Positions 29,774 through 57,676 of a stretch of 64,000 nt of DNA are shown here, one piece after another. Where the stretch lies: positions 4,960,001-5,024,000 of the forward strand of contig NC_088317.1 of assembly GCF_910592395.1 (NCBI RefSeq), read 5' to 3'. The position numbers and the translations under genes were made by a program. The notes below the pieces were generated by a model. It saw only the letters and a program-made list of their open reading frames with translations. It did no database searches and was not told the origin of the DNA. The stretch is from Lineus longissimus. Taxonomy: Eukaryota > Nemertea > Pilidiophora > Heteronemertea > Lineidae. Positions within the stretch are counted from its first letter, which is position 1. The number at the start of each line of letters is the position of its first letter.

Positions 29774-29798
29774 ATGGCAGTCCAGATGCAACAACCCG
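29774..29798 (+). CDS. PLSCR: Scramblase start exon (coding part)
   Basis: ATG GCA GTC CAG..CCC G then GTGAGT. It encodes MAVQMQQP and one base of the next Gly codon. The exon probably begins at 29751 after TTTTTTCTCCAG. Joining to 32443 gives Gln/Pro-rich sequence continuing into the family core. Confidence 0.75.
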
Positions 29799-32700
29799 GT
29801 GAGTAAACATGTGCATGTTGGCCTACATGTACAACAAACGAATTCGAAGAAGTTTGTTTTGGCGCTGACCAGTCATGCGTTTCAACTTTAACAAAGGATC
29901 GCTGTGTCTCTAGGCATTATCCGAAGTCGGCATAGGCCTGAGTGTGCGCATTTGATTTGTTTTGGGGCTGATTCGTCTTATTCGAAAAGCCCTATGATGT
30001 AAGTGCAGGAATTTAACGTGTTATTAAAATCGGGGACTAAATCTCTTACTCGTGATACATACCAAGAGTCATACTGTGGAACTTCCCTTAGCGGACACCT
30101 CTCTATTAAGGACACCCTCTCTATTAAGGATACTAGTTTGGGTCACAATTTGGTCGTTTCCAATCAATTTGACCGTTTCCAATCAATTTGACCACTCTAA
30201 TCAGGACACCTCTCTATTAAGGACAGCACTTGTCAGTCCCGAGGGTGTCCTTAATAAAGAGGTTCTACTGTCCATTTTTTCATCCATATTGGTGTATTCC
30301 CAGGCACTGTTGATCTTTTTATTTGTGTAGTATTATTTTACAGTTATGACATCAAATTGCAGGTGAATTTACAAAATTAAATCCCAACAGTGCTGGCTAT
30401 TCGACAGCTGGTAGGATTATCATAAATAATACACCCTAACTGTTATTTGGTCTAACAAACATGTTGTCGGATGCACAATTTGACGTTGACATTTTCGGTT
30501 TCACTTGACACATGAATGCATGGTAATATAAATAACCGATGTCAGTGCAGAGACGCACCCAGTTTAATACTGCACACCATTCCTCAATAAAAGATAGACA
30601 AACAAGATTCCTCACACAATTTAAATTTTCATTTACTCTTTCATGTCATAATCTCTGCAACCTTATACAAAAGGTTAACATAAGTTCACATTCTATTACA
30701 ATTATATAACTAAATAATTCAGCAGGCTATAATTGGGGTATTGGTAATCATGGAGGTTGCATCAGTTACAGTATTCCAACTCTGGTTGACAGGACTTCAC
30801 AGGCCTGTTGATAGAACAGAGTGCACACTGGGATTTTCCTGAAAACAATCTGATGGGGAATCCAGTTGCCAATATCCACCGGTTTATGCCTGTTTCGCCT
30901 ATTCCTGTTTCGCCTATTCCTGTTTCGCCTACAAAATTCCTGTTTCGCCTATTCCTGATTCGCCTATTCCTGTTCCGCCTATTCCTGTTCCGCCTATTCC
31001 TTTTTCGCCTATTTCCTGTTTGGCCTATTTCCTGTTTGGCCTATTTCCTGTTTGGCCTATTCCTGTTTGGCCTACTTTCCAGTACCCCTACAATAAATCG
31101 ACTCTCCCACGGGGAACCTTAGGGATGCATGTCCATTTTATGGGGAAAATGTGAGGGGACAATTGGATGATGTTAACGATGTGATGACAATTTGACGAAT
31201 CAAATGCCATCAACTTTGTTAACAAACCATGCCATGACCGTTTTGAAAGAGTCACCTTGAAAGCGGGGACAGTCCGGGACTTATTTGACCATAGGACCAT
31301 AGGACCATACTGACACACAGTAAAAACTAATAGATTAAGTAGAGTAAAGCAGTCGTTTATTTTATGAAAACTGAATTCATGAGTTTTTGATAAAAATACA
31401 TAATATTGTACATTCTCATAATTATTTGATCAAAATCAGCTGTAAAACCCATGTCATAATATACATGTAGGTACAGCACATATAAAGTCAAACAAGGTGG
31501 AAAATACATATCATGATATTATGTCAGACAAGGTAACTGATGGCATCAACGTAACTCATTATGTCCCTCTCTCCATTGACGTATTGTTTTTTGAGGCGTA
31601 ACATGCGTTCGTCAATGCGTACATATGTGTCTCTCCTCGGGTTTGGTCGGTCAGTAAGGGGCGGTTCATATTCCTACGTCTGTGGGGAGGTTAGCAATAC
31701 ATTTGAATAGGCGAAACAGGAATAGGCTAAACAGGAATTAGGCAAAACAGGAATAGGCGAAACAGGAATTAGGCAAAACAGGAATTAGGCGAAACAGGAA
31801 TAGGCGAAACAGGAATAGGCGGAACAGGAATAGGCGAAACAGGAATACACCTATCCACCAGCTGCCATTACATAACATTGCCGACTGCCTGAGTCAGAAC
31901 CCTCACCAGAGCAACACAGCAGAAGTTCTGCCAGTTCTACAATAAACGTGACGTGACACCAGAAGAGAAGTCTTCCTTGAGTTGTGTGTTGCAGACGAAG
32001 ATGAAGCAGCCCTGCTGTGTATTAAACCTAACAATAACCATTCCTGCATGCCCACATTTGACTAAACGGTACCCAGTTTCTAAAACAAGGGTTGCACCAT
32101 GAGTTACACACAATTATCCTACCTAAACAAGGCATTGACATGTCTGTCTTTTGTGTGGCCAGCAAAAAGAAGTTGAACTAGGCGCCAACTGGGATAATGT
32201 CTCTAAAAAGCTTTTGTCTAGGGAATATACTGAAGGAAACCTAGTATGCTGTCATAAGATATGGTAGTCCCCATCTCACTTCTTGAGGAAGTGATCAGAC
32301 TGCTGTGTAGAAACCAGCTGGCAGTACGCATCATTGTACACAGGGGCTATGATTGTACCAGGGCCATAATTGTACTACCTTACCTTACGTGTTGTCGATT
32401 CTGAGGTTGGTCTCATATAATTTCTATTTGTCTGATTTTCAGGTCAGGGCACCCAGTGGATGCAGCCGCCACAAGCTCCAGCCAACTGTCCACCCGGCCT
32501 CGAGTATCTCGCACAGATCGATCAACTCCTCGTCCACCAGCAGGTAGAGTTACTGGAAGGTAAGATGCTGCTGCTTAAGAGGGGTCTATCGGAGCACCGG
32601 GGTAAAATCGGCCATCTTGGGGTCAATAATGTGCTCAGTAATGGCAACGGCACTTGTCATTTATGATTCAGCACTAGATATTCCTCGTGCAAGTATGAAT

Positions 32701-38700: not shown

Positions 38701-41700
38701 GACAGGCAATTTTTGTCCCTCCCAAATATTCACGAGTCCCGCTAGAATAAAGGTAATTAATCTCGAAAATCATTCCCGTTTTTTGGTCTGTCTTGGTGTC
38801 CCGAAAAAAAATACCATTCCCCCTTCTTTTAGTTCATAAAAGCTAGCTCATACAATATTCAAACGTCTTCACTGATTTTGATGAGATGATGCGTTGTTAC
38901 GTAAAATAGAATCCCCTAAGCGCGCAGTTGTGCCAGCTGAGTCACATGTTGACACGACTAATCTGGGACCTTTTAAAAATGAATAGGCTGGAATGAGGGC
39001 AATCCCATTGCCATTGATTATTACATAATCAGCCTGCTCCCCTGTGCTCTCGCTCACGAAATATTGACTTGTGACATAATGGCCAACTTATTGCAATGAT
39101 TTGAAATCAATCATTTGCAACAGCGCATGAGTCACGAAAGGGCAGCCTATAAAATCGACAGCAGGGACATCCTTGTCCAAAACATGCTTTGCTGACATTG
39201 GGTTTGACACTGATTGTAGGTCGCTGTGATCTCCCATTCTTGTCACAGGTGCTCGGGATGATCACCGCTAACGAGCGATTATTGTCAACTGCGATTGAGA
39301 TCACCGGTGCCTGTGTTTTTAGTCCCTTGTTCATGGTGTGCCATCGACAGAAGACTCAACTATCATGTGATGTCCATCAGTCCAAATTTGAAGGTCAATA
39401 TTTTTCAAGCTAGCTGTATGCTCCTGATATAGTTGAGGCAAGGCGTGAAGGACAGATACACTGTTTAGACGTTCTTAAGAACACATGCTGGCCTACATGT
39501 AGAATTCAAGGTCAACAAGTGAATTGAAAGGTATATTGAAATCTTCATATCGAGTAGCAGGACCTCCTTTTCAGGCTGTGTTTGCCTAAAGCAGGCCAAG
39601 CATTTCTTTGGAAAGTTGTCCCTGTTCAGTTGTGTTCGAATCGATCGGCAAATATGCTCAAGGTCGTATTTGCAGAAGGTGGGGCAGGCTTCTCTCCCCC
39701 AAGATTGACTATGAATTCCTGGCGGGCCTCTCCCCCCAAGATCATGATAACTATGAAGACCTGCATCACATCTCTAACCAAAGATTGACTATGAATTCCT
39801 GGCTGGCCTGTCCCCCAAGATCATAATAACTATGAAGACCTGCATCACATCTCTAACCAAAGATTGACTATGAATTTTTACCATCTTATGTAATTTCAAA
39901 ATCTTCTATCAATAAAACGGTCTAGACTCTCTGCCATGGAGGTCAATGCAAACAGGGGCGGAAACGGCCTTGTCAGTTATCAGAGTTTCGTAATGCGTGA
40001 GGAGATTGCGGCAATGGATGGGGACAAAATTTACAATAATGAGGCTTATCAGTGCAATCTCAAATCATAGGTCATAATATTTTGAAATCAGTCACTCGAA
40101 ACTGTTCTTATCATTTTCAGCTTCATGTGCAGTGGATGGGAACAAACTTGACAGTACGGATGCCTAACAACTGCAACCGTTCCACAATATTCAAATTTTC
40201 CGTCATAACATTTTGAAATCGCTCAAAATTATTCTTATCATTTTCAGCTTTCACCGGCTTTGAGACCAACAACAAATATGAAATTAAGAATTCGATGGGA
40301 CAGCGGGTCTATTTCGCAGCTGAAGGTGAGTGTAGTGCGGGAGAGGATATTCTGGGGGGGGGGGGGAGGTGTTCTCGTCAACCCTGAGAGTCTGGACGTT
40401 AAGCGAGGGGGAGAGGATGACAGAAAAGTCTCCCGCTGTAAAGCATTGACCATAGGCACCACCATTTTGGCTAGAACTTGAAATCTTAAAGCTATCAGAC
40501 CTCTTTCAAAACAAAGTGAATGCCCACTTCAAGGGTGGGAGTTAGTTCTTTGCTTTCCAGGGATCAGACTCCATGCAAGCCTTGAAAATGTTCCAACTCA
40601 TCCAATTGGCCACAGTTCACTGTTTGGGGTACTTGTTTGACTGGAGACTTTGGCCAATTATTCAGTACCCCACATATGTATCGGTTCTAATCTTTCCATC
40701 AATTTTCAATAGAGCAGATCCACGAGTGTGTCTGTGATATTTTTGTATGCACTTCTCCAGCATGTCTAATGTATTCACTTTGATCCCAGACACTGAATGT
40801 TGTACAAGGAACTGCTGTGGCCCTGGACGACCGTTTGACATGAAAATTATGGACAACTCGGGCCGGGAAGTCGTCCATCTCAAGCGTCCACTCCGCTGCA
40901 GCACATGCTGGTGTCCGTGTTGTCTCCAGGTAGTAACCGTTGCCATAGAAACAATAGGTTGCTATAGCGATTGCTGGTTGCTGTGGTAACAGCTAGGTAT
41001 CATAGCAACCGTCGAGCTGCGCGTAGCAACAGTGTGGAGATCCAGCCTGGCTTTGTTTATGGTGCATTTCTATCCTTTCGAAAATGTCTCAGAAGGCGTG
41101 GACCATTCTATAGCACTGATTTGCGTTGTTTATGTCAGTTTGTGTTTTTCATTTTCAAAAGACAAAAATTCGGGAAAGTATGAGAAAGAGTTAATTTTGA
41201 CCTTTGCCACTCGCCTTCTGAATCAGTTTGGTCTATCATCCATTTCATGAAAAAATGGAACTCAGAATTTTCACACAGAATACAAAGCAGTTGTTTCATC
41301 TGAAACTTAAAAGTCTGAATTTTCTAAAAGTATTCACTTTGACAGAATCTGACTAGAAATCAACAAGAGTGAGTCTTCTGAAGCAAAATCCTGGCAAATT
41401 TTTCCAGCCATTTTATGTTGGAAACATCTGGGAATATAACTGAAGAAAATGTCTGGGAAGATTTGCTGGTATTTTGCTTTAGAAGACTATTTCCTTGTGA
41501 TTTCTAGTCCGATTTTGTAAAAGTGTTAATTTCTAGGCAGCTCAGACTTCGAAGTTTTAGTTGAAATATAAAATTCTGTTCATCATTTTTAAACTGCTTC
41601 GTTTTCTGTTCTGCAGTGCCAAGTTTTCATGAAATGGGCTCAAGCGTGGTAGACAAAAAACGATTTTGTATGAACAGTATTGAATAGCTCTAGATATTCT

Positions 41701-44700: not shown

Positions 44701-47700
44701 ATGTTCGCTAATTGACTTCGAAGATTGAAAATTTGGCATGAAATGACACAAGATGAAAATGACCCGCCAATGACATCGTGAATTATGTCATAGCTGCTTA
44801 TGGAAATGACTTGTTTGTTCGTAAAGTGACATCGTGCACTTGACATTTCGAACTCTATGTCAACCCAGCCTGATAAAATGTTCATCTTCTGATTTCTTTC
44901 TATCTTGTCCTATTTCGTTCCCTAATCTGTTGTGACATTTTCATTGTGTTCAACTCAAACTAGAACTATAAACAATCTAGTCTTTGCATGCGTTTTATCT
45001 TGGTGTATTTCGCGAATAACCTCAATTCGCGAAAATAAAAATTGGCAAAATCTTTTTTGATTTGAAAAATCATCATGACTTCCTTAACCCAACAAAAAAT
45101 AATTCTCTCACAAATGTAATCTTGTGCAATGACTACTTCTTTGTCTTCTCGATCCCTTCCTTCGTCTTTTTCAGTCTAAAGTTCATATCTGTCTTGTCCT
45201 TGTAAAATGGACAAAATGGCCAGACATTATGTTGACAAATCATCCCTAAAAATTCTTTAAATGAATGTTGTCCTCTTCATTGCTCAGCTGGGTAAATGAT
45301 AAAACAGGCATTGAAGATTGCCTTTGATCACCCTGGAGAATCAGGTCCCAGCAGACCGAGAATCGGATCTTGATCTTGGGTATTCAAGGCAGGCCCTCCA
45401 ACTTACGGAGCAGCCAGTCCTAATGGTGCCTGGAAGGGAAGGCATGGGAAAATGTGTGCATCACAAGGCTCCAGCGACACAGATTTTTCAACATCTTTGA
45501 AAAACTTCCTCCTTTCCCAAGTCGAGCCAACTCGGCATGTTGGAAGGCCTGCCTGATTCTCGGCAAGCTGGGGAACGGATTCTCCAGGGTGAAGATGCCT
45601 TTTACTTCAAATTCTCATAACATAAGCAGCTTTATTTGCAATTCTGATATGCATCGCTTATAGCTTTCATAACACGTTTTATCTAATCCTTGTATCGTGT
45701 ATAATTGACATGTTTTGTACATAATTCGATAGATAGCAATTAATCCTTAATAATGAAACAAATCCTCACCAGGTTAAATAAATCTCAATTTATTTCTGTT
45801 TACAAAACATTCATGTATCCGATTGTGCCTGTGTTATATTCCAGATCAGGATACTTCTTACAAGGAAAAAACCCAGGTGTTTTTCCAATCTTTGGAGAGA
45901 AAAAACTTGGAACAGTGTTTTCAGTCTTTGTACAGTGCCCTAGCTAATATAAGCTTACGAGGCACTTGATATAGAATATCTTAACTTGATACAGTTAATT
46001 CCCACTTGAAAACTGAACGTAACTTTGACTTTATTGGTGGTTAAGATGTGGTTAATGTCCTTCTTGATAATACACAATTTTGTAGACACAACTTTACGAA
46101 AGATTTTCTGATAGGTAATGTCGATAACTTGACTTAGATTGTTGGTTGATATGTAATGTCGATAACTTGACTTAGATTTTTGGTTGATATGTAATGTCGA
46201 TAACTTGACTTAGATTGTTGGTTGATATGTAATGTCGATAATTTGACTTAGATTGTTGGTTTTGAGAATATGAGTTTGGATACAAATTGAATGCGCTGTA
46301 CCAGCAGAGCAAACAACTCATCCTCAAATTTCCTTATAGGGGGACTGAAGGCAGAGTCTAGGGGGTCAAAACTGGAAGTATTCAGGTTACACAGTCATAA
46401 AACTGGGTTGCGTTTCAATTCATTCAGGCATGATTACATATATATTCATCATACAAGCCTGAATACTTTCCATGTACTGTTAGACAGGAGGGACACCTAT
46501 TGGTGACATTTGTAACTTCATCTGACCTCAGTTCGTGCCTATAGTCTCTCTCAAAAGGGGACTATAGGCAGGACCAAGGTGGTTAAATTGGCCATCTTCG
46601 GGTGATTAATATACACAGTTTGGGCACTGGGTCATGTTTGATTCAGCACTAAGTATGCTCCTCCTACAAGCGTGAATAGTTTCCTCGCTCTGTGAGATAG
46701 GAAAGGCCCCTATTGGCGACTTTGTCTAACTTTATCTTGCCTACCTAGATGCTGCCTATAGTCCCCCTTTGAATGTGTAAAATCTAAATTCGTTTCTTTT
46801 CCGTTTTAGAAAGTTGAAGTTAGCGCCCCGCCTGGTAATGTCATCGGCTATGTGAAGCAAGCGTGGAGTGTATGCGTGCCGAAATTTAAGATCCAGAATG
46901 CCCAAGAGGAGACCGTGTTAACAATAGAAGGGCCTTGCTTTACGTGTAGTATCTGTGGAGATGTCGAATTTCAGGTTAGTAACCATAGCAACAGAAATCT
47001 GTTAAAGGGACTTTTGGTCAAGCGATGCCATTCGATGAAATCGTAATTGTCTGCTATCCCCAGTGGTAGTATCAGCCTTACTATTAAACTGTAGAACGGA
47101 AATTTTTCGATAATCGCAAACGATGGATATATTTGAGGCAGTATACTTTCACAGGTCAAGGCAATATTTCATCGAAATAAAATTTGTCGATTTCAAAGTG
47201 CTCTTATAGTGAATATGTGTTGTCCTGTCAACTGCATTCACTAAGAGTGATAAACCTTATGCCGAGACTGCTGACATAGGACAGGAAAATTTAGTGTAGT
47301 AGAGCATGTTCCAAAAAATTCCAGTGCTGCGTCATCCTTTCGTGAAAATTCTTGTAAGCGATCAAATGTCTGAATGACAGTTTTTTTCAGTTCAACCCAC
47401 GTGTAATTAATGACTGTTCGTTATCATAGCTGCTCATTACCATTGCGTGGAAGACTCTCAGAAGACGAAAAGGGCTCCATAATAAATGAACTTTTATTTA
47501 TCAAACTTCTCTCATTCCAACGTCTGTAGTTGTGTAGTACATAGCTGATAGTTTAAAAACGTCACTTGAAAGCTTACAGTCCTAATCACAAATGACATCC
47601 ATCCTGCTTTGCGTCATTGATGCGCAACATATGTGACCCACCACGGCGAAATGAGTCGCATGTCGCACAGAAGATGAGCCTAAAATGACACCTGGACATA

Positions 47701-50700
47701 ATAGAAGAAATTGATATGCTCAGATTTCACAAAAGGCAGACAATAGTGAAATGAACAACCAGTCCGTCTCAACCTGTCAAGCTCAGAGCGACATGCCACT
47801 CATTTTGTCATGGCGGATCACATATGTGACCCTCTCTGAGAAAACCCAGCTAAAGTTGCCTTGAACTTGGCATGTTGACACAGACTTGAGTGTTCATTTC
47901 CTTCTGTGGTCCTATTGTGAAATCGAAGTTGATCAATTTTGACTCGGATTTCATAAAAGGCCTACAATAGAGAAATAAAACAACAAGTCTGTTTCAACCT
48001 GCCAAGTTCACAGCGACTTTAGCTGGGTTTTCTCAGAGAGGGTCACATATGTGCGTGTTGCGCGCAGAGTTGTGGGTCCATGACGCACCAGTGACCAGAG
48101 AAGCAAACATTAACCCCTAATTTCCTTAGTACGCTCTGCTTCTAACATTGCTGTAACAATCGTCTGCTTGGCTGTCTCACCCTGTAGGTCATGTCTGCTG
48201 ATGGTGGCACGAACGTGGGCAAAATCTCTAAACAATGGACGGGCCTAGCGAAAGAGTTGTTTACGGACGCTGACAACTTCGGTATGACCTTCCCTATGGA
48301 TCTGGATGTCAATATCAAGGCCGTACTTCTCGGAGCCGTGTTCCTTATTGTAAGTATAGACGGAGCTGGTTTTCGCGTGATTTCATGTTTTTGTCCTTTG
48401 TAAGTTGTGGTGAAATGTGAAAATCTGAACTTAAGGTGATTTGGTTGTGATTTAGAACAGAAGTGACTATGAAAAATAAAATTTGTGAAAAATCTCAAGT
48501 TGCAAACATATAAGACCAACAAGTTATAACAATTCAGATGAGTATTTTACCACAACTTACCAAGGAATCAAAAGGAAAGACTAATTCGTAGTTTATCCAT
48601 TTCAGAAACTCTTCAGGGAATTCATGAGCCGTGCGGATCCATAATTTCAGAAATTATTCCGGAAATAATCTTATTTTGTTGGTAATCCACAGGTGTATTC
48701 TTCAGACGGTCAAACCCAGGTTGGCCGCATTTCCAAACAGTGGTCAGGTCTCATTAAGGAATTGTTCACAGACGCCGATAACTTTGGCATCACTTTCCCC
48801 GCCGACTTGGATGTCAATATAAAGGCAGTCATGCTTGGCGCGGTGTTTTTGATCGTGAGTATTGCGCTCATAGACAAATGAAGCCACGCCTATTTAGATA
48901 ACGATGATAATAAATGGCAGCGCCTATAGATCCTGATACTGTAAACCGCCAATTTTTTGCCTCTTTATTTTTCCGATTCACGAAAATTTCTGGGAAAAAA
49001 AATTTCACGATTTTTATTTTGGCTAATTACAAAATATATTCCCATTCTTCGCATGAAAAGATATTTTTGTAGTTTTTAATTCAATGAATCGCGATTATTC
49101 GCGAAATCAGGGAGAAAAAACGCCCGTGAAAATTTGGCGGTTTATCACATCTGGCAGACAGTAGCAGTACCATGTACATAACTGCTTTATCAAATGCTAA
49201 TACTTGCATTTACTTATCTGCTGTAGTCATCAGAATAACTGTGTGGGTACTGGTTACCTTTAAAATGCTGGGGCTTCAAAGAAACAAGGCAATGTGTGGG
49301 TACTGGTTACCTTTAAAACGCTGGGGCTTCAAAGAAACAAGGCAATGTGTGGGTTACTGGTTACCTTTAAAATGCTGGGGCTTCAAAGAAACAAGGCAAT
49401 GTGTGGGTACTGGTTACCTTTAAAACGCTGGGGCTTCAAAGAAACAAGGCAATGTGTGGGTACTGGTTACCTTTAAAATGCTGGGGCTTCAAAGAAACAA
49501 GGCAATGTGTGGGTACTGGTTACCTTTAAAACGCTGGGGCTTCAAAGAAACAAGGCAACGTGTGGGTTACTGGTTACCTTTAAAATGCTGGGGCTTCAAA
49601 GAAACAAGGCAATGTGTGGGTTACTGTTGCCTTCAGAATGCTGGGGCTTCAAAGAAACAAGGCAACATGTGGGTTACTGGTTACCTTTAAAATGCTGGGG
49701 CTTCAAAGAAACAAGGCAATGTGTGGGTACTGGTTACCTTTAAAACGCTGGGGCTTCAAAGAAACAAGGCAATGTGTGGGTACTGGTTACCTTTAAAATG
49801 CTGGGGCTTCAAAGAAACAAGGCAATGTGTTGGTTACTGTTGCCTTCAGAATGCTGGGGCTTCAAAGAAACAAGGCAACATGTGGGTTACTGGTTACCTT
49901 TAAAATGCTGGGGCTTCAAAGAAACAAGGCAATGTGTGGGTTACTGGTATCCTTCAGAATGCTTGGGCTTCAAAGAAACAAGGCAACGTGTGGATTACTG
50001 GCTTCCTTCAGAATGCTGGGGCTTCAAAGAAACAAGGCAACGTGTGGATTACTGGTATCCTTCAGAATGCTAGGGCTTTAAAGAAACAAGGCAATGTGTG
50101 GGTTACTGGTATCCTTCAGGATGATGGGGCTTCAAAGAAACAAGGCAACGTGTGGATTACTGGCTTCCTTCAGAATGCTGGGGCTTCAAAGAAACAAGGC
50201 AACGTGTGGATTACTGGTATCCTTCAGAATGCTGGGGCTTCTAAGAAACAAGGCAACGTGTGGGTTACTGGTATCCTTCAGAATGCTTGGGCATCTAAGA
50301 AATAAGGCAACGTGTGGGTACTGGTTGCCTTCAGAATGCTTGGGCATCTAAGAAACAAGGCAACGTGTGGGTTTAATACTGGTATCCTTCAGAGTGCTTG
50401 GGCTTCTCTGCACATAAAATAACATAACAAGCTTCTTTTTTTTCCAGGTTTGAAACAAGACGTTATAAATTTCTTGTCCTTTTCGCAGAATTTTGTCAGA
50501 AATAACCTGACATTATAACTGCACGATTGTTTTTGACATGTTTGTAATATGACCTTGTTTGTTCAGGATATGTTATACTTTGAGAAGAAGCAAGAACAAA
50601 ATTAAATGGGTGAGGAAAAATACGATGCAGCTATAAACGTCACCGGGCACAATACTAACAAGGGCATGACCTGTATTTTCCTAATATCATGTTACCACAT

Positions 50701-53700
50701 CTTGTCACGATTTTATATTGAGTTTACTGTGCACCCCTTTAGTCTTTTAGCATCCTCAGGGACCCCTTGTGTCTTGCGAGGATTGGGTGCGAGATCAGAA
50801 GGAAAGACACCAGGAATAGGAGCCAAGAGATAGTGGGCTAAATTCATAAAGGGCGTTTAAGGGTTAGACGTGTGTAACTTCTCCCTAATCAGTTTCAGGG
50901 CCTATTCATATTCTGTGAAGATTTACATAAAGGACCTGAGTATGTCTATTCAGTAGTTAAACACTGTTTTAAGCTAAACGCCCTTTATGAATTTGGCCCA
51001 GTGTCTTTTGGTGTAGAATATAAGGAGTCAAGGGTGGGCGTGGGGGTGTCCTTTGGTTGTGATCTGTCATCCTAACGTGCATGTATGTTTGGATAGGATC
51101 CAAGGATGGGCAGGTCTTCATTGGTGGAGTATGACTCCATTCCTAGACACTGGCAAAAACGTAAATGGCCACAAAGTGAAACGCTCTGCTGGTTTTATAG
51201 GTCGCTTCAACAATAGAGGTCACTGAGGGTGCTCCAGATCAGACTTTTTCCTCCAATAAAACAGCAAACTTCCCTGTTGGTCAACGTGTCTCACCCTGAC
51301 TCTCATGTTTTGTCATCCCCTTGAATATACTGTATAAACCCATGACTTTTATCAAGAATTAGTAAAGACGATTCTTTATTAAATCTTGCATGTATGTACT
51401 ACATTACCACTCATTTGAAAGGTGTCGATGAGCATTTTCTTATGATGCCATATATACCGATTGATTTTATTTTGGGGGTAAAGTAAAAAGACTTTGATAT
51501 TTTCTCAAACTTCCCCCCCCCCCGAGCTGTTCTTCAAGAGTAAATATTAATATATCTCATTCCTTCACTTTTCATTCAGGACTTCATGTTTTTCGAGGAG
51601 ACTACCAAAGATGATAATCCGATCGATTAACTGTAACATACCAATAAGGTCTAATATATAATTTTTTGGGGTACTTGGCTTTGGAAGACTGAGGAAGTCA
51701 GCAGGACTTTCAATTTGGTGTATAACTATTGTACTTGCTTAAAACTTGAGTTTTGTTCAAAAACAACATCCAAAATGACTCGAAAATAAAATCCTTAGTA
51801 ATTGCCTTCCTCAGAGTTCATTCCATGGCCACGTGTGGTTAACTCCCTCTTAATTTTTTTGGTGATCTGTGAAAATCTATTTGAGTTTGGCACAGGAGTG
51901 AAGAGATTTTACACATTTTAGTCGGTGTGGTGATGCATTTTATTAGTAGTTGGTGGAATTAGGGTGGTGATTTTTTGGTAGTGTGCACCTTTCTACCAAT
52001 GTTTATTTCTGTTAACCTGTGGGACAGATGAAAACAAGGTACACTGATGAACAATGGTATCATACATATTTCATATCCATTCCATCTCTTCTCTCCCCAG
52101 GATTATCTATATTTCGAAAAATCTGATGACAAAAATTCAGGTCCCGGTTCCCAATATCAACACTAAAGGTAGAAGACAGCGGAATACAAAATCTTGACAG
52201 TCGAGGCAAAGAATATCTTTTTTGTCAAGTGAAATTTGAAATTATTTTACATGAAAGAAAACATATGTTACCTTTAAAAAAATGCTCCACATACTTGTGA
52301 TTTTTGTCAACGTGACCCACGATCGAGATTGCATATGACAAAAATCATGGGTGCCTGCAACAAGAATCGATGATCGCCACAACCTGCAATCAATATTAAT
52401 CCGGCGCTTACCGGTTTTTCCGCAGATGAGTGATAGTTTTATCGCTCATTGCAACCATAATTGTTACAGGTTACAGCAACAAAAATCACTTGTTTGCAGG
52501 TTTGTGTCGGTGTTGCAAGTCGTGATTTGTGGTGAAAAATAAAAAAATAGATACAGTATGCCAAAAAGATATACTTTGCCGAAGGTCATGTTAAAAATAA
52601 TCCTGAAATCTAATTCTCTCTTTCTAAATATTGACTCTTACTGTTGGCCAAGTCTCTGACTATAATAATTGGTTAAAAAATATTACATCTTACACTCTGT
52701 GTTAATCTTTGTGTGACATCACCGTATCATGACTCAAGAATTTCTTCAAGGTACTATATATAATACAGTTTTATAGTGTTTCAGTTAGAAATCAGAAAAG
52801 GCAGGGCATAGACTGAAACAGGTTTGGTGCAATGCCCTGCTTCAAATGAAGATGCATTAGCCATTTCTGAAAAAAGGCAAGGCAAATAAGAAAAAAGATG
52901 GGACGCATGGTTTGCCCTGCTTAAACTCTAGCTGAAACACTGTAACTGTAATCCATGTAATGTTTGCCAAGCTAAAAATTGGCAAATTAGGTGTCCGCTA
53001 TGGGAGGTTTGTGAAAATAATCCTGTCTAATTGTTTTCATCTTTGCACACATTCCCAATCAACTACACCCATCGTAACCTAATCTTCCTCACGCACCAAT
53101 CTCTCCTCACTCTCCCCCTCTAGGACTTCATGTTCTTTGAGAAGAAAGCCGAAGATGACGATAAGGATAAGAACGACCACCATTAGGTGGCGCCACCGGT
53201 CTGCTAGGTAACACGTACCTCATGGATGCAGACCCCCATACTAAATCGCAGCTTTAGAAATTGCTTGCTTCGATTTATGACTATGGGTCGTCTTAAGCTC
53301 ATGTAAAGATTTCGACGATTGGGCACTACTAGCAAATTTGCAATCACAAAATCCAATTTCTTGAGTGTTCTCGGATTCCATTTCCATTGATTTGGTAATG
53401 TTGCAAAAAAATATGAGTTGATTTCAAGCAAGCATTTTCTAAAGCCCAGGGCCTTGACGTTTTCACTTAATTGCAATACTCCAATTTCTTTTCAATTTCT
53501 TGATATTTTGAGCACCTCTCAGATTATAATCCCTTAGTAAGACTTTGATGAACGGGTGAAATGTCTCACTGAAATCTGTATCCTCTGGAGAATGATCACT
53601 GCTGATGTCAAATAGGCCCGATGGCTCATTCGGCATTTGTGCTAACGCCAGCATTAAATCAGGTCTCACATGGCACTAACTATTCTTGGGTTGTTCAATC

Positions 53701-55754
53701 AGTGTTAGGCACAGACCATCATTTACTTTGGCGTTAAATTTAAAGTACCTCCCCGGCCCATATGTTCAACCCAGGCTTTGGGGATTTCTGACGTGAGCAG
53801 CAAATCCAACATGGCCCCGAACAAAATACTTCTCACTTCAGCCACAAATACGTTGCTCTCCCAAACCAGGTCTTATAAAAAATCCTCCTCGCTTGCTTTT
53901 GGGAGGTAGTACTGATTGACATGCTCTGAGAAGTCATGAATGAGTTGTCCCCTGTACCTTGTCGATTCCCTATTCTATAAATAGGACATCATGACTGCTC
54001 CTGGCCGATTTTGCAGTAATTGGGAGACAATAGATGGAGTGTCCCTTTCTTATGAATGAGAGGTGCTAAAAATATCAGCCGCCATATTTCTTATCAGTTG
54101 CCATCGATTCTAACCGCTTGCCTCTCCATCCTCCCTCCTCCATTACTCACGTACAGGACTTCATGTTCTTCGAGAAGAAGGTCGAAAAAGATGATAAACA
54201 TGGTCACCACTAGGTGTCTCTAGCTGTATAGGTAACGCAACAACAAGGGTGTCGACTTCTATGTGGTGTTCACGCATGCTGTTACTCTGTCGTCCATTGA
54301 AATAATTTGGTACAGTCCAGGTCACAATTGACCTCCTTTCTGATTCGCGTCCGTTACGTGCGCCGAGTTACGCGTCACTGGCACGCCAGTACTTGCGACC
54401 TATGCGCTGGGTGGCACGTCAGTATCGCGCCACTGACGCGATTTAAGGGATGTCAATTGTGATTTGGACTGTACTGAATGATAGTATCCTTAGCGTTCAG
54501 TCCCTTGGCAATGCATGATAATTAAGTCAACTCACTGAGTACAAGCATACCGGGCTATACTCTGAAGGAGAAGAGTCTTTGTTGTGCAGGGTATTTCAAT
54601 ATCTCTTGAGCTATACACTGGTGGCACCTAACTTCTTGTCTGTATAGCACGGTATGCCAGTGACGGGCTTGTCCACATTGAAATTGTGATTAGTGGTTCA
54701 CACAAGTTTCTATTGTGCAGTCGGTCAATTTGTACCACCATAGAGAGAGAGTGTAGTGGTGCATTCGTAAAGGTATACGTTTTGAACTCATTGCACACAA
54801 GTGAGTTTTATCGCTAAGTGTTGCAATGTAGCCAAAACAACATTTAATACACCTACCAATCAGTGGCTACTTTTCAATCACCATTGTCAGTTGTCATGGC
54901 AACAACATAGCGACAAAAATCACTAGTGTGCAGAGCGCTTTAGAGTGGAAATCGTCTGTCGGTGATTAGCAATTTTGTAACTGCATGTCCCTATTGTCGA
55001 GATTTCAAGTAAATATATTTCAAAATGTATCGTAGGTATTGAAGTTAAGTTTTGCAAGATTTAATCCAATTATGTTGTGAGATTTAGTTTTATATCAATC
55101 GCTAACATTTCACATTAACCCTCGTGCGCCTTCATTTTCAGTCTTCAGGTATTGAATAAACTCCTCACAATTTGAGTTGCTTTTCCAAATCTTGTCCCTT
55201 TTTGATTTAGGAAAAGAAACCTTAAAAGTCAACTGATAATTTACTTTGATACGGCTTTCCTTTGATGCGGCTGTTTGTGTTTGATGTATTTGATATTCAA
55301 ATAATTTCACCGGGCGCCAAAAATCAAGGCGGCTGCTGATAATCGGAATCAAATTAATAACTTTATGGATCAAGCCTAATTGTTTATGGATCAAGCCTAA
55401 TTGTTTATGGATCAAGCCTAATTGTTCATCGATCAAGCCTAATTGGAATTATTATGAAATACAAAGAAAGTCATAGAGTAATACAGAAGATGGAAAGAAA
55501 TTTTGATGAGGGAAATTAGTGTACTTCTGCCTGAATTTGTGGGCCAATAATTTCAACATAAATGTAAGTGCAATGACAGTTTCAAGTTTTATTACTCCTA
55601 ATTTGTACCCTAGTAGAAGGGGTTTAGGGCGGCCTTACTCAAGAAAAGGTTTTTACTCATCAAATCGTTACCATGGTAATGTTTTCTATTTCAGGATTTC
55701 ATGTTCTTCGAGAAGGAAGACAACAAAGAGGAAGCTAGTGTCACCATGATGTAA
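29774..55754 (+). CDS. PLSCR: Phospholipid scramblase gene with alternative Cys-rich, Ca-motif/TM and last exons
   Basis: Constant coding exons: 29774-29798, 32443-32559, 40248-40325 and 46810-46974. Alternative exons: C1 40790-40929 or C2 43212-43351; E1 48188-48349 or E2 48693-48854; last exons at 50567, 51580, 52101, 53124, 54157 and 55695. Phases agree for every combination, giving proteins of 241-250 residues. The N-terminus is short and Pro/Gln-rich, then reads [38 protein letters not shown], a Cys cluster Cxx[20 protein letters not shown] and [25 protein letters not shown] follows (the EF-hand-like Ca motif), then a C-terminal transmembrane helix ending FLI-DFMFFE. Scramblases are single-pass proteins linked to Ca-dependent lipid movement; PLSCR1 is palmitoylated at its CCCPCC cluster, so the CWCPCC here may be too. 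The ATG is preceded by a strong acceptor (ag at 29749-29750), implying an upstream untranslated exon. Up to 24 isoforms are possible; actual use is unknown. Confidence 0.93.
30072..30272 (+). mobile_element. MITE of the TACAGTGGAACCTC family in scramblase intron 1
   Basis: Starts TACTGTGGAACTTCCCTTAG and ends GAGGTTCTACTG. The core phrase TTTCCAATCAATTTGACC is duplicated here, making it about 20 bases longer than the 15510 copy. Confidence 0.75.
30885..31075 (+). repeat. 15-bp minisatellite, arm 1 of an inverted pair
   Basis: Units are TTTCGCCTATTCCTG and variants (TTCCGCC, TTTGGCC). The reverse complement array is at 31703-31846. The open frame through it (Leu/Phe/Arg-rich) is a by-product. 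Confidence 0.85.
31703..31846 (-). repeat. 15-bp minisatellite, arm 2 of an inverted pair
   Basis: Units GAATAGGCGAAACAG and variants, reverse complement of the 30885-31075 array. About 630 bases of unrelated sequence lie between the arms. Confidence 0.85.
32443..32559 (+). CDS. PLSCR: Scramblase constant exon A
   Basis: Acceptor TGATTTTCAG and donor GGTAAGATG. It encodes [18 protein letters not shown] and the following [11 protein letters not shown]. This matches the start of the conserved core of PLSCR proteins ([12 protein letters not shown]). Phase 1 at both ends. Confidence 0.93.
32575..32785 (+). mobile_element. About 210-bp inverted-repeat element just after exon A
   Basis: Relative of 46552-46770: AGGGGTCTATC..GGCCATCTTGGGGTCAAT..GATTCAGCACTA..CCCCTATTGGCGACTTTGT..CTTTATCTTGCCTA. 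It starts about 15 bases beyond the exon A donor. Confidence 0.65.
32786..35719. other. Scramblase intron interior; no exon recognised
   Basis: No additional scramblase-like exon was seen. The segments 33815-33890 and 34515-34600 are distantly similar (TGGTATGAATG, GACATGATT, GGGTAAGAT), and 35455-35545 resembles 45495-45590 (GCCTGATTCTCGGCAAGC and TGGGGAA), which suggests more dispersed repeats. A remnant of the TACAGTGGAACCTC MITE is at about 35720-35771. Confidence 0.4.
35862..36053. mobile_element. Hairpin element, TGTGACCCACCACGACAAAA family
   Basis: Arms TGTGACCCACCACGACAAAA and its complement TTTTGTCGTGGTGGGTCACA enclose a second inverted core (GTTGTTCATTTC-type, with ATTTCACAAAAG). 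A related copy is at 47632-47823. The core is shared with the TGTGACTCGCTCTACC hairpin family. Confidence 0.8.
36167..36389. mobile_element. Near-perfect hairpin element, TGTGACTCGCTCTACC family, copy 1
   Basis: About 100-base arms. The left arm contains AACTAGGCGCTTGTCG, TGACAGGTTGATACGGACTT, GTTCATTTCCCTATTGTAGA and CCTTTTGTGAAAT; the right arm is its reverse complement. The loop is about 20 bases. Copies 2 and 3 are at 44034-44253 and 57465-57676 and are nearly identical. Confidence 0.9.
36545..36760 (-). repeat. Minisatellite AATTCGTCCCCGG, arm 1 of an inverted pair
   Basis: Units such as GGATAATTCGTCCCC and GGAAAATTCGTCCCC. Reverse-complement units fill 37165-37440. Between them lies a second inverted pair (about 36868-36945 and 37003-37075, containing GGTAGAGGTAGGCAGGCGAA). 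Confidence 0.85.
37165..37440 (+). repeat. Minisatellite CCGGGGACGAATT, arm 2 of an inverted pair
   Basis: Units such as GGGGACGAATTTTCC and GGACGAATTATCCTC, complementary to 36545-36760. The Asp/Glu/Phe-rich open frames in both arms are by-products. Confidence 0.85.
37458..38033. mobile_element. Fold-back element with about 165-bp arms and an internal ORF
   Basis: Arms run from CTCACTGAGGCTGAAGGGG (left) to its complement CTTTTGGCCTCACTGAG (right). Each arm has several inner inverted phrases (GGGTGATGCACAATATCACC, CATCACCCTGGGTGA). The core encodes a minus-strand frame starting at 37827. Confidence 0.85.
37537..37827 (-). CDS. Unidentified ORF inside a fold-back element
   Basis: A 96-residue frame: an N-terminal part rich in Lys/Arg/Glu ([25 protein letters not shown]) in the unique core, and a C-terminal tail from the inverted arm. 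The unique part is charged and looks helical, unlike the surrounding noise, so it may be a captured or eroded transposon gene fragment. I recognise no domain. The start ATG (GCGGCC follows) is the first in frame; there is no sign of splicing. Confidence 0.3.
   Translation of the reverse strand: MAAVHLVHQRDLKHHLAAIPEVERASLVAKGREIKQKYVRLTNKHEKGAEDLFAVRGRLLYIAEVPCYDLTTSSPIAKRMHKITLGDVVHAQCHPG
39670..39880. repeat. About 78-bp tandem repeat, 2.5 copies
   Basis: The unit contains AAGATTGACTATGAATTCCT, CCCAAGATCAT, and AACTATGAAGACCTGCATCA. Confidence 0.8.
40248..40325 (+). CDS. PLSCR: Scramblase constant exon B
   Basis: Acceptor TTATCATTTTCAG, donor GGTGAGTG. It encodes [19 protein letters not shown] and VYFAAE, nearly the vertebrate PLSCR sequence at this place. 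Phase 1 at both ends. A G-run (40354-40369) lies shortly after the donor, and a look-alike acceptor lies about 117 bases upstream. Confidence 0.95.
40790..40929 (+). CDS. PLSCR: Scramblase alternative Cys-rich exon C1
   Basis: 140 nt, phase 1 in and 0 out. It encodes [16 protein letters not shown], then the basic/hydrophobic stretch, and ends [12 protein letters not shown]. It differs from C2 at nine of 47 residues, mostly mild changes (E/D, N/Q, S/T) plus G/S, D/G, G/N and K/Q. The Cys pattern is intact in both. The donor is followed by a dense cluster of GTTGC/GTAAC motifs. Confidence 0.93.
40930..41015 (+). promoter_or_regulatory. Cluster of X-box-like half sites beside exon C1
   Basis: Contains GTTGCCATAGAAAC (40939-40952), GTTGCTGTGGTAAC (40977-40990) and further GGTTGC/GCAACC halves. 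They could be RFX-type sites or intronic splice signals; the location directly after an alternative exon leaves both open. Confidence 0.35.
41020..43205. other. Intron between C1 and C2; no further exon
   Basis: No third Cys-rich exon was found. One segment (42940-43010) has a tRNA-like B box on the minus strand (GGGTTCAATTCC) and could be a SINE relic. Confidence 0.35.
43212..43351 (+). CDS. PLSCR: Scramblase alternative Cys-rich exon C2
   Basis: 140 nt with the same phases as C1. It encodes [16 protein letters not shown] and ends [12 protein letters not shown]. If spliced after C1 instead of in place of it, the frame shifts and reaches TGA after 17 codons, so the two can only work as alternatives. 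Confidence 0.93.
43410..43771. mobile_element. About 362-bp TIR element (GCAAGTATCAATTCGT), copy 1
   Basis: Inverted ends GCAAGTATCAATTCGT.. and ..ACGAATTGATACTTGC, continuing into CCCCCCCTCCTCAAGGG on one side and its complement on the other (about 45-bp TIRs). Nearly identical copy 2 is at 57850-58212. It begins 58 bases after the C2 donor. Confidence 0.88.
44034..44253. mobile_element. Near-perfect hairpin element, TGTGACTCGCTCTACC family, copy 2
   Basis: Same arms as 36167-36389. It is nested in the TTAA-flanked element 43888-44614 and shows that family inserting into another repeat. Confidence 0.9.
44266..44442 (+). CDS. Small ORF in a TIR element; AT-hook-like start
   Basis: 58 residues starting [15 protein letters not shown], then [20 protein letters not shown] and [17 protein letters not shown] resembles an AT-hook core. 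The helix-forming tail looks like the short N-terminal segment found before zinc fingers in some invertebrate repeat-encoded proteins, a loose impression only. It may be a transposon gene fragment; no catalytic motif. Confidence 0.35.
   Translation: MSKVRVMGRPKKVSKADQRLWISHKTLAIWKVIQKELNLKTNDEVAQGLVLLTSVKQP
46110..46265. repeat. 38-bp tandem repeat, about four copies
   Basis: The unit is TAATGTCGATAACTTGACTT plus AGATTGTTGGTTGATATG, nearly identical in each copy. Confidence 0.9.
46335..46770. mobile_element. Two head-to-tail inverted-repeat elements (AAGGGGACTATAGGCAG family)
   Basis: The better copy is 46552-46770, with ends AAAAGGGGACTATAGGCAG and CTGCCTATAGTCCCCCTTT. A more diverged copy is at 46335-46549. 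They end 40 bases before exon D. Confidence 0.7.
46810..46974 (+). CDS. PLSCR: Scramblase constant exon D
   Basis: 165 nt, phase 0 at both ends. It encodes [28 protein letters not shown] and [15 protein letters not shown], matching the PLSCR middle region (APPG..IGYV..W, GPC..CSCCGDVDFE). The donor is followed by GTAACCATAGCAAC. Confidence 0.95.
46979..46992 (+). promoter_or_regulatory. Perfect X-box-like palindrome after exon D
   Basis: GTAACCATAGCAAC matches the RFX X-box pattern GTNRCCATNGYAAC. The same 14-mer recurs at 59450-59463. Confidence 0.4.
47632..47823. mobile_element. Hairpin element, TGTGACCCACCACG family, copy 2
   Basis: Ends TGTGACCCACCACGGCGAAA and TTTTGTCATGGCGGATCACA. Similar throughout to 35862-36053. 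It abuts the next hairpin with a shared CATATGTGAC. Confidence 0.8.
47824..48050. mobile_element. Hairpin element, TGTGACCCTCTCTGAGAAAA type
   Basis: Arms TGTGACCCTCTCTGAGAAAA and TTTTCTCAGAGAGGGTCACA with a core related to the other two hairpin families (GTTCATTTCC, ACAACAAGTC). It ends 137 bases before exon E1. Confidence 0.85.
48188..48349 (+). CDS. PLSCR: Scramblase alternative Ca-motif/TM exon E1
   Basis: 162 nt, phase 0 at both ends. It encodes [37 protein letters not shown] and [13 protein letters not shown]. Motif residues D-A-D-N-F-G..D-L-D (EF-hand-like) are kept. The first two-thirds of the transmembrane helix is here and the remainder in the last exon. Confidence 0.95.
48693..48854 (+). 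CDS. PLSCR: Scramblase alternative Ca-motif/TM exon E2
   Basis: 162 nt, same phases as E1. It encodes [37 protein letters not shown] and [13 protein letters not shown]. It differs from E1 at 10 of 54 residues. Two changes flank the Ca motif (M/I and M/A). Only a 343-nt intron separates E1 and E2. Confidence 0.95.
48938..49147. mobile_element. About 210-bp inverted-repeat element
   Basis: Ends GTAAACCGCCAATTTTTTGC and AAAATTTGGCGGTTTATC, with an AT-rich inner inverted region (TTCGCGAA-like). A related fragment is at about 45010-45050 (TTCGCGAATAACC). Confidence 0.65.
49243..50405. repeat. 53-bp minisatellite, about 22 copies
   Basis: The unit contains GGGGCTTCAAAGAAACAAGG, CAATGTGTGGGTACTGG and TTACCTTTAAAATGCT. 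Early copies carry TTACCTTTAAAA; later copies carry TATCCTTCAGAATG. Because 53 is not a multiple of three, open frames run through all three registers; none is a gene. It occupies the intron between E2 and the first alternative last exon. Confidence 0.92.
50567..50605 (+). CDS. PLSCR: Scramblase alternative last exon T1
   Basis: Acceptor TTGTTTGTTCAG. It encodes [12 protein letters not shown] and stop TAA. It is the shortest tail, and its helix residues D-M-L-Y-F-E differ from the usual DFMFFE. Confidence 0.8.
   Translation, partial: DMLYFEKKQEQN
50838..51000. mobile_element. About 163-bp inverted-repeat element
   Basis: Ends GGGCTAAATTCATAAAGGGC and GCCCTTTATGAATTTGGCCC. The interior is unrelated. 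It lies between T1 and T2. Confidence 0.75.
51580..51630 (+). CDS. PLSCR: Scramblase alternative last exon T2
   Basis: Acceptor CTTTTCATTCAG. It encodes [16 protein letters not shown] and stop TAA, a purely acidic/polar tail. A possible polyadenylation signal AATAAA is at 51785-51790. Confidence 0.88.
   Translation, partial: DFMFFEETTKDDNPID
52101..52166 (+). CDS. PLSCR: Scramblase alternative last exon T3
   Basis: Acceptor TCTTCTCTCCCCAG. It encodes [17 protein letters not shown] then QYQH and stop TAA, the longest tail. AATAAA is at 52538-52543. Confidence 0.85.
   Translation, partial: DYLYFEKSDDKNSGPGSQYQH
52763..52951. mobile_element. About 190-bp inverted-repeat element
   Basis: Ends TACAGTTTTATAGTGTTTCAG and CTGAAACACTGTAACTGTA, with inverted GGCAGGGCAT/ATGCCCTGC phrases inside. 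Confidence 0.55.
53124..53186 (+). CDS. PLSCR: Scramblase alternative last exon T4
   Basis: Acceptor CTCTCCCCCTCTAG. It encodes [20 protein letters not shown] and stop TAG: mixed charge with a double-His end, like T5, suggesting T4 and T5 are the most closely related pair. Confidence 0.9.
   Translation, partial: DFMFFEKKAEDDDKDKNDHH
54157..54213 (+). CDS. PLSCR: Scramblase alternative last exon T5
   Basis: Acceptor ACTCACGTACAG. It encodes [18 protein letters not shown] and stop TAG. The bases after the stop (TAGGTG..TAGGTAAC) resemble those after T4, supporting exon duplication. Confidence 0.9.
   Translation, partial: DFMFFEKKVEKDDKHGHH
54311..54479. mobile_element. About 168-bp inverted-repeat element
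   Basis: Ends TACAGTCCAGGTCACAATTGA and GTCAATTGTGATTTGGACTGTA, with TA flanks. The interior is GC-rich and itself partly inverted (CGCGTCACTGGC/GCGCCACTGACGCG). Confidence 0.7.
55358..55445. repeat. 21-bp tandem repeat, four copies
   Basis: The unit is TTTATGGATCAAGCCTAATTG; the last copy is TTCATCGATCAAGCCTAATTG. Confidence 0.92.
55695..55754 (+). CDS. PLSCR: Scramblase alternative last exon T6
   Basis: Acceptor GTTTTCTATTTCAG. It encodes [19 protein letters not shown] and stop TAA. The end V-T-M-M fits a class I PDZ-binding C-terminus (T at -2, hydrophobic last residue), unlike the other tails. The stop codon lies in the first unit of a short tandem repeat (55745-55830, GATGTAACGTATGGGA-like). 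AATAAA is at 56400-56405. Confidence 0.9.
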   Translation, partial: DFMFFEKEDNKEEASVTMM

Positions 55755-57464
55755 CGTATAGGAAGATGTAACGTATGGGAGGATGTAACATATGGGGGAG
55801 ATGTAACGATCAGGGAGATGTAACGATTATTCGATGTCCAAATGCTGCATAAAATCAATTCTTCTTATACCACAATACGGGAATATACCAGCAGGATTAT
55901 TGAATGACTCATTGTCTGACTTTGGCAGTTAATTAGAAGCAGTAGACATCTGGCCTATCATCCCTTTCATCATTTTCAGTGCCTGCTTTAAGGATAGTAT
56001 TGCATAGTTATATCTGGTTATCCCGAGGTTCTGTATTATAAAAATAGATGCTGCTTGATCACGTTGATTGTGAGTTCTGTTTGGTGCGTGGCGATCAACT
56101 GTTTTGGGTTTATAAATAGACTGATCAGGAGATAGTGTTGATCAGGTATAGGCCAGATGCGTACTACCTCTTATTAACTGCTGCTTACATGTAGAGGTCT
56201 GGCGACGCTATGTCACCCGAGTGTATTTGCAGTATTGTGTGTTGTGATGCACAGTATGGGCTTCTACATCACGCTGTACATTGGCATGCACTGCATCTTG
56301 ACATCATAAACCACTTAATGCATCCTTGTAGAGAACTTGATGTCATCAAGAACTCGTAACGAGTTTTTTGTGTCGTGCAGAGATGATCTTGCAAGATTGA
56401 ATAAAGACTAGGGTTTACCTTATTTTGATAATACCAAGTATGGATTAAATCTAATCTTGATGATACTGACACCTGAATAAATCATGTTTAACCCTGCCTG
56501 TGTAGGCAGGGATGCACAGGTATCTTTGTACCGATAGCTTTGGATAAAATAGCCTAGGCGAGGGAATTTCAACATATCTTTTGAATGCTGCTTTGAAAAT
56601 GATTATGCATTAGTCAAACCGAAGAAATGTGCAATGGCCAGTTTATGGACTTTTTCAGAAGCATATGTCAACATCCTTTTGTTTTGCTGGGCTGATTTCT
56701 TCAAAGTTTGGTTCTAGTTCTACGAAATTTCCAGCGGCACAAAACGATTGTGATGGTTACTTATGAGACGCCTACTGATATAACGCCAGTAGCTTTTTTC
56801 CCCACTGAAACGTAGTCCGACACTGGTGATTTGTTTTTCGTTTGGTTCTTGCATTCTGAGGTTTTTGGAATCCTCTCCGGTGATGCCAAAACAATAGCGG
56901 TACCAATGAAGGGAGAGTATGTACACGTCTAAATTTTTCCGCGATTGGGAATGGTTTTGAAAGTGTGCACACTCTGACTTCATACTTGGCATTCTCTGTG
57001 ATTTTTTTAGGACTCCATAATAAGATTTAATGTTGCATGTTTGTAGTGTGTGTATTTAGCATAAGAGCACGACTGTAGGTTTTTGGAAAGGGATTATTTT
57101 ACACTATAGTCCATTTCACAAGAAAAAAACGCTAGCACGGTAGTTGAACAAAATATTATATTTCACCAGTAAGTATCTCACTCTTATCTGAAAAGCGGCC
57201 AAGAAATGACCAAAAGCGAGCCATTTGAACATGCTGAAGTGAAATACCGACAGCTTTTCCAAGTAATTTTAGGCTTTAGTGCCATTTTCCGGTGAAATGG
57301 ACTTACTGGTGATGGCCATTTTCTGGTGAAATGTACGCAAGGGGACAGAGAACATAGAAGGTACTTTTTGAAATTATTGCCTGTGATGAATTTTCACGGC
57401 AGAATTACTCTTTCGAGGATTAGCAATCCCCCAGTTCTAGTCCAACCAACAATTTGTGACTCGC
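55755..57464. other. 3' side of the scramblase gene; no further exon seen
   Basis: Contains the GATGTAACG repeat to about 55830 and AATAAA at 56400-56405. The remainder has no repeat or coding signal I can support. Confidence 0.4.
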
Positions 57465-57676
57465 TCTACCAAAACTAGGCGCTTGTCGCATCTGAACTTG
57501 ACCGGTTGATACGGACTTGTTGTTCATTTCCCTATTGTAGACCTTTTGTGAAATCTATTACAAACTGATTTGGTCACATTTCACAAAAGGTCTACAATAG
57601 GGAAATGAACAACAAGTCCGTATCAACCTGTCAAGTTCAGATGCGACCAGCGCCTAGTTTTGGTAGAGCGGGTCAC
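57465..57676. mobile_element. Near-perfect hairpin element, TGTGACTCGCTCTACC family, copy 3
   Basis: Almost identical to 36167-36389 and 44034-44253. The two arms differ at only a few bases. Confidence 0.9.

Follow-up and report, generated by a model that had tools for sequence, protein, structure and literature searches.

Introduction

Tandem exon duplication with alternative splicing is a well-known principle. In OGDH, for instance, the exon 4a/4b forms include calcium-sensitive and calcium-insensitive ones (PMC7969005). Among phospholipid scramblases of the PLSCR1 type, the elements described for human PLSCR1 are the palmitoylated cluster CCCPCC, the import motif GKISKHWTGI, the calcium loop D[A/S]DNFGIQFPLD, for which positions 1, 3, 5, 7, 9 and 12 are proposed to coordinate the ion, and a C-terminal helix (PMC8202325). 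The corresponding account of Drosophila scramb1 states that palmitoylation and putative calcium sites matter for its function (PMC11335299).

Here we describe a PLSCR-type gene of the ribbon worm Lineus longissimus (NCBI RefSeq assembly GCF_910592395.1) that is apparently a clean, undescribed example of the above principle, partly visible in database annotation. A first-pass annotation, made by a model from the DNA letters, had stated that it knew of no described scramblase locus of this design; our literature search, which covered open-licence papers, agrees with it in that we found no paper describing such a scramblase exon arrangement.

A PLSCR-type gene with two duplicated internal exons and six last exons

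The window, i.e., the whole 64,000-nucleotide stretch that was analysed (contig NC_088317.1, positions 4,960,001 to 5,024,000), contains a single PLSCR-type gene on its plus strand, with the coding exons spanning positions 29774-55754 (Table 1). The two spliced isoforms scanned with the Pfam Scramblase profile (PF03803) matched it with e-values of 1e-93 and 3.5e-95 (313.2 and 317.9 bits vs. a cut-off of 25.4). Exon 5 and exon 7 are each present in two copies of equal length and phase, and there are six last exons, 8a-8f; each of these follows an AG acceptor, begins with D..[FY]FE and carries its own stop. GT donors and AG acceptors are found at all exons, with the boundaries checked by a script. 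Exon 5 carries the Cys cluster and exon 7 the import motif, the calcium loop and the C-terminal hydrophobic helix; by sequence, the Cys cluster, loop and helix are present in both copies of the respective exons. The first-pass annotation's set of 2 x 2 x 6 phase-compatible exons at one locus is thereby confirmed, all of them having been located with splice sites and matching phases. Upstream of exon 1 an acceptor-like CTCCAG, noted by eye and ending at 29750, suggests a further, 5'UTR exon.

Table 1. Exons of the L. longissimus scramblase gene and an intronic inverted repeat, in window coordinates
Feature	Position	Strand	Remarks
Exon 1, coding part (MAVQMQQP + G)	29774..29798	+	phase 0 to 1; matches the start of protein P0001
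Exon 2, candidate 16-aa cassette	30363..30410	+	phase 1-1; weak acceptor; absent from NCBI isoform X5
Exon 3, constant	32443..32559	+	single copy in window
Exon 4, constant	40248..40325	+	single copy in window
Alternative exon 5a, Cys-rich, palmitoylation-type cluster	40790..40929	+	140 nt, phase 1 to 0
Alternative exon 5b, Cys-rich	43212..43351	+	140 nt, phase 1 to 0; present in NCBI isoform X5
Exon 6, constant	46810..46974	+	phase 0-0; single copy in window
Alternative exon 7a, import-motif-like stretch, Ca loop, hydrophobic helix	48188..48349	+	162 nt, phase 0-0; present in NCBI isoform X5
Inverted repeat, 23-nt arms, 91% complementary	48394..48566	+	within the 7a-7b intron (343 nt)
Alternative exon 7b, import-motif-like stretch, Ca loop, hydrophobic helix	48693..48854	+	162 nt, phase 0-0
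Last exon 8a	50567..50605	+	acceptor, start motif, stop
Last exon 8b	51580..51630	+	acceptor, start motif, stop; strict genome-wide pattern
Last exon 8c	52101..52166	+	acceptor, start motif, stop
Last exon 8d	53124..53186	+	acceptor, start motif, stop; strict genome-wide pattern
Last exon 8e	54157..54213	+	best DNA match 8d, then 8f; strict genome-wide pattern
Last exon 8f	55695..55754	+	tail type most like other phyla; in NCBI isoform X5; strict genome-wide pattern

All 24 combinations of 5a or 5b, 7a or 7b and one of 8a-8f, spliced to exons 1-4 and 6, read through to a single terminal stop. The two duplicated exons differ in what the frame permits. The length of exon 5 is 2 modulo 3, and the frame ends after residue 153 when 5a and 5b are joined and after residue 91 when neither is included; because both copies or none thus lead to an early stop, a full-length protein takes one or the other. 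The length of exon 7 is a multiple of 3, such that the frame survives whether both copies are joined or both are skipped (giving 319 or 211 residues in the combinations tried), and exclusivity at this exon would therefore need splicing control. If the 7b donor is left unused, the frame ends in VSIALIDK and a stop, and such a read-through may possibly provide a further C-terminus. Because the three choices may or may not be independent, 24 proteins is a ceiling on the isoforms, which would rise to 48 should exon 2 be a cassette.

The NCBI protein 'phospholipid scramblase 1-like isoform X5' of L. longissimus has 248 residues that are identical to the product of exons 1-3-4-5b-6-7a-8f. This means that NCBI treats the locus as one gene and already lists multiple isoforms for it, at least five to judge by the number X5. 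Its 90% cluster holds eight member sequences; we dropped the idea that this cluster excludes certain combinations, the copies being too alike for a 90% cluster to distinguish them. Because X5 skips exon 2, whose acceptor is weak (10 pyrimidines out of 20), this exon is at most a cassette, and probably an optional one. As a lead only, the oyster isoform P0031 has an insert, DGFTNLFPVHPA, that is somewhat like exon 2, and the oyster isoform P0030 is without it.

Constraint on the internal exon pairs and their age

Exons 5a and 5b are identical at 103 of 141 nucleotides and 38 of 47 residues, and 7a and 7b at 107 of 162 nucleotides and 44 of 54 residues. The differences at codon positions 1, 2 and 3 number 8/5/25 for the exon 5 pair and 11/5/39 for the exon 7 pair; in terms of sites, 24.0 of 29.3 synonymous sites differ in the former and 34.8 of 37.0 in the latter, with 0.125 and 0.161 differences per nonsynonymous site, respectively. 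Since synonymous sites are saturated while the protein is conserved, both pairs look like exons under purifying selection. When the copies were compared together with 400-nt flanks, they were similar over the exons and the few adjoining splice-signal bases, but not beyond. Thus, 5a/5b and 7a/7b resemble recognized tandem duplicated exons in being adjacent, homologous, equal in length and phase and, by their substitution patterns, constrained.

The exon 5 copies share 40 (5a) and 36 (5b) of 47 residues with the protein of the nemertean Tubulanus polymorphus, compared with 38 of 47 between themselves; likewise, 7a and 7b each share 44 of 54 residues with Tubulanus, the same count as with each other. 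Because the copies differ from each other about as much as from other phyla, both duplications look old at the protein level. In trees of 29 rows, with 47 columns for exon 5 and 54 for exon 7, the copies could not be placed for dating: a grouping of 5a with 5b or of 7a with 7b is not rejected (p-AU 0.683 and 0.536), and neither is one of 5a or 7a with Tubulanus (p-AU 0.651 and 0.427).

Residues changed by the internal exons

According to the first-pass annotation, the alternative exons would, if all were used, sample the acylation cluster, the calcium site and the membrane end independently. For the internal exons this was not supported. All nine cysteines are kept at the same places in 5a and 5b, and among the proposed coordinating positions of the calcium loop only position 7 differs, being M in 7a and I in 7b. 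The hydrophobic helix of exon 7 differs between the copies by one L/M exchange. The tails supplied by the last exons are the parts that change most among the alternative exons.

Certain residues of the copies are rare among the 119 homologues that make up the other matches listed from our first search. The M at loop position 7 of 7a is found in one of them, and the A at loop position 11 of 7b and the G at exon 5 position 17 of 5b in none. Comparable states occur where there is no named motif, viz., at exon 5 position 32 (K of 5a in 0/119, Q of 5b in 1/119), exon 5 position 3 (E of 5a in 2/119) and exon 7 position 9 (N of 7a in 1/119). Because the cysteines are kept, changes in the loop and helix are few and rare states also lie outside the motifs, we read the internal swaps, as judged from the aligned residues, as conservative. 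A tuning of the calcium loop by the choice of exon 7 is possible, and these counts do not single it out.

The Tubby-like superfamily fold is a beta barrel around a C-terminal helix. An AlphaFold model of isoform X5 built on a 49-row alignment has a mean pLDDT of 80.6 and contains a helix at residues 216-234 that spans the exon 7/8 junction (229/230), with pLDDT below 50 in the tail (238-248) and in residues 196-201 just before the calcium loop. The best PDB matches of this model are human Tub and TULP1 (ranks 1-3); they are weak, with a best e-value of 5.8e-3 and a TM score of 0.46, and none of the 783 matches reached an e-value of 0.001 or less. The protein would be expected to keep the same barrel in every form, with the internal swaps tuning it conservatively.

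Six last exons and their tails

We searched for the last exons with an AG-plus-motif pattern written from the six themselves and hence fitted to them. It has six matches on the plus strand of the window, which are 8a-8f, none on the minus strand and none in 200 Markov simulations of the region. A strict FMFFE-type pattern, YAGGAYTTYATGTTYTTYGARRAR, which was not designed to match 8a or 8c, has four matches in the 391 Mb genome, namely 8b, 8d, 8e and 8f, and its reversed control has none. The genome-wide control weighs more than the simulations, because the first pattern was fitted to the six exons; taken together, these counts led us to reject chance matches as an account of the last exons.

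Exons 8a and 8c form a second type, with DMLYFE and DYLYFE starts. At the DNA level the closest pair is 8d/8e (86% over 43 nt, e-value 2.9e-9), followed by 8e/8f (83% over 41 nt); over the first 21 nt, 8d and 8e have 20 in common, and likewise 8e and 8f. The last exons being short, constraint on 8a-8c is weakly tested.

Among the same 119 homologues, 64 end in [GT][MVI][FMLIVWY] followed by no more than two residues, and 8f is the only one of the six tails with such an end. The 8d and 8e tails end in acidic and His residues, as does the oyster isoform P0026 (KKDDKMKHDHH). An AATAAA or ATTAAA precedes the next last exon in all six cases (for 8f, within 1.5 kb), with a density close to the window average of about 1.1 per kb, so that this is weak evidence. 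Each last exon would probably have its own poly(A) site. The choice of last exon would swap a short C-terminal tail, which probably sets the partners or the location of the protein.

Intron features and repeats

Upstream of 5b the AG-free stretch measures 63 nt and upstream of 7b 42 nt, both within the range of the constant exons 3, 4 and 6 (37 to 93 nt); distant branch points of the kind found in OGDH are thus not supported. The 343-nt intron between 7a and 7b, the only one that was folded, folds better than all of 100 shuffles (z -2.68). Its inverted repeat may be a splicing structure or a relic of a mobile element and is offered as a lead only, given that two stretches of the gene region contain 21 pairs of inverted repeats.

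The window has further repeats, some of them tandem repeats in the introns. Between 7b and 8a there is a minisatellite (49240-50373) with a 54-bp unit in about 21 copies and a 107-bp higher-order unit. Palindromic elements of about 230 bp, alike by eye, lie at 36160-36400, 44028-44258 and 57455-57680, with the arms of the second 96% complementary; they may belong to a single MITE-like family. A different element, at 43408-43773 and starting about 60 bp past the end of exon 5b, also has inverted ends, and a second copy of it seems to lie near 57850-58215. There are also two pairs of minisatellites with 15-bp units (30885-31074 with 31705-31847, and 36546-36759 with 37164-37440), in each of which the second array is the reverse complement of the first.

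Predicted use of the alternative exons

The above observations can be brought together in one explanation, which we hold with high confidence, namely that this is a PLSCR1-type gene grown by tandem exon duplication, from which a transcript takes one of two exons 5, one of two exons 7 and one of up to six last exons, with exon 2 probably optional. Under this proposal, tandem exon duplication would have enlarged one ribbon-worm gene; each transcript would take a single Cys exon, 5a or 5b, by a choice that the frame enforces, and a single exon with the import motif, calcium loop and helix, 7a or 7b, by a choice left to splicing, and would end in one of the several last exons. The one isoform in hand, X5, uses 5b, 7a and 8f; for 5a, 7b and 8a-8e we infer use by the animal from conservation and splice signals.

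A narrower form of this explanation has a little less than an even chance: the choices may be coupled, with the alternative exons used in a few fixed sets (e.g., by tissue or poly(A) site) to give a handful of proteins. Tandem duplicated exons of human genes are described as highly tissue-specific (PMC9741552), and the one isoform in hand is a single set, 5b-7a-8f; on the other hand, frame and phase permit free combination. Less likely, and equally compatible with the preferred explanation, is partial decay, in which some copies (most likely 8a and 8c, possibly also exon 2) see little use or are being lost, leaving a working set of, e.g., 2 x 2 x 3 or 4. The deviation of 8a and 8c from the FMFFE form, the shortness of 8a, the shortest of the last exons, and the weak acceptor of exon 2 together with its skipping in X5 point in this direction, but in 8a and 8c the acceptor, the stop and the D..[YF]FE start are all retained. 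At the opposite extreme, the three choices could be independent and amount to a combinatorial code by which the gene yields as many as 24 scramblases of distinct function, or 48 with exon 2, and in which the exon 5 copies would tune membrane tethering, the exon 7 copies would provide calcium loops and import motifs of differing strength and the six tails would lead to different partners or places; we regard this as doubtful, somewhat more so than decay.

That the locus instead comprises several tandem PLSCR genes or pseudogene remnants is very improbable. The first-pass annotation had named separate tandem genes with their own start exons as the case that would overturn its reading, and on contig C12 (about 12.77-12.79 Mb) this genome does have a close group of other PLSCR-like genes. 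However, TBLASTN searches of the window with exons 1, 3, 4 and 6 (exon 2 was not among the queries) recovered one copy of each at an e-value below 0.01, and the alternative copies are all free of internal stops, none of them having lost its AG or GT; in view of the single copies of exons 1, 3, 4 and 6 we rejected this reading, and the one-gene reading is upheld. An assembly artefact from mis-joined haplotypes, for which tandem repeats in the introns might be cited, has a negligible chance of being correct, the internal copies being saturated at synonymous sites, far past haplotype divergence, and their flanks unrelated.

Scramblases elsewhere in the genome and in other species

A Pfam search of the genome (391,118,348 bases in 30 contigs; match counts are lower bounds) recovered at least 15 Scramblase matches, six of them in the window gene and nine on contig C12. 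On the latter, PLSCR-like exon sets are present in each of five 10-kb stretches (L013-L017); in these sets introns cut the Cys region and the calcium region, and the window gene is without these introns. The first-pass annotation had contrasted this locus with vertebrates, which it said have several PLSCR genes instead; that contrast fails, because the same genome has further PLSCR-like genes. If the alternative copies are used, scramblases in one genome would diversify both by exon duplication, as in the window gene, and by gene duplication, as in the C12 loci.

Three of these sets, L014-L016, are the ones close together, and L017 is at about 56 kb on C12; L015 has an additional stray Scramblase match on the other strand. 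Some of the sets have diverged calcium loops (SDADKFG). At L013 (about 12.082 Mb) exon 4 is duplicated in tandem: 75 nt after the first copy (3968-4045) comes a second (4121-4189), which matches it in phase, both lengths being multiples of 3, and is flanked by an AG and a GT of its own. L013 also has a degenerate exon 3 copy, containing a stop, at 3083-3148.

Our homologue searches covered the best 120 of 2754 matches (first search), all 21 of 21 (exon 5b alone) and the best 120 of 881 (7b+8e). Pairwise comparison of isoforms was made over the 120 from the first search. In no other species among the matches listed did we recognize alternative versions of exon 5 or exon 7, in a set where 90% clustering would hide most such isoform pairs. 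Similarly, no evident orthologue of 5b or 7b was among the matches listed when scoring was restricted to exon 5b or to 7b+8e; in the latter search, the Lineus 7a protein itself ranked eighth. One pair from the best 120 of 2754, P0019/P0028, was flagged for a nearly shared exon 6 with differing exons 5 and 7; we rejected it as a pair of alternative-exon isoforms and read it as two species, exons 3 and 4 differing too (0.87 and 0.88) and one of the proteins being from Bugula.

At the 3' end, two proteins of the shrimp Penaeus vannamei (P0053 and P0110) are identical over exons 3-7 and have two tails that part exactly at the exon 7/8 junction (one being DAIYFEKWDTD), which suggests, at the level of these protein sequences, alternative last exons in the shrimp too. 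The isoforms of Magallana (oyster) and Mytilus (mussel) also have differing tails, which part slightly downstream of this junction. In the nemertean T. polymorphus the protein of this type (P0004), seen in one form, ends in an 8f-like tail; a further protein of this species, P0167, is PLSCR2-like.

Comparison with known systems

Like other PLSCR1-type scramblases (PF03803), the worm gene encodes a full-length domain, with the Cys cluster, import motif, calcium loop and helix in the order described for human PLSCR1 (PMC8202325). What sets it apart are its six last exons and its two copies each of exons 5 and 7, the latter duplication being one that we did not recognize elsewhere among the matches examined. 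Drosophila scramb1 similarly gives rise to several scramblase isoforms from one gene; however, these come from two promoters and differ at the N-terminus (PMC11335299). If the worm's copies are used, they would provide natural matched pairs of the Cys cluster, of the calcium loop with the helix, and of the tail, whose roles in PLSCR proteins are still discussed. The internal pairs, apparently long kept under constraint, would be a ready experiment on what may vary at the Cys cluster and at the calcium loop and helix.

Beyond scramblases, the multiplication of isoforms from one locus by tandem exon arrays is shared with Dscam and the 5' cassettes of chelicerate Dscam genes, as these are presented in PMC4835542, but the worm gene has far fewer copies and a scramblase is not an adhesion or recognition protein. 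In insect Mhc with its mutually exclusive exons, the alternative exons of one gene act as a gene family does elsewhere (PMC2257972); the worm differs in having other scramblase genes too, and its largest set of alternative exons is that of the last exons. Close parallels to exon 7 are exons 4a/4b of OGDH and the EF-hand exon pairs of ACTN1 and ACTN4, in which tandem exons likewise swap a calcium-binding stretch (PMC7969005, PMC9741552). In those systems one form is without calcium binding or sensitivity, whereas 7a and 7b of the worm gene both keep the Asp and Phe coordinating positions.
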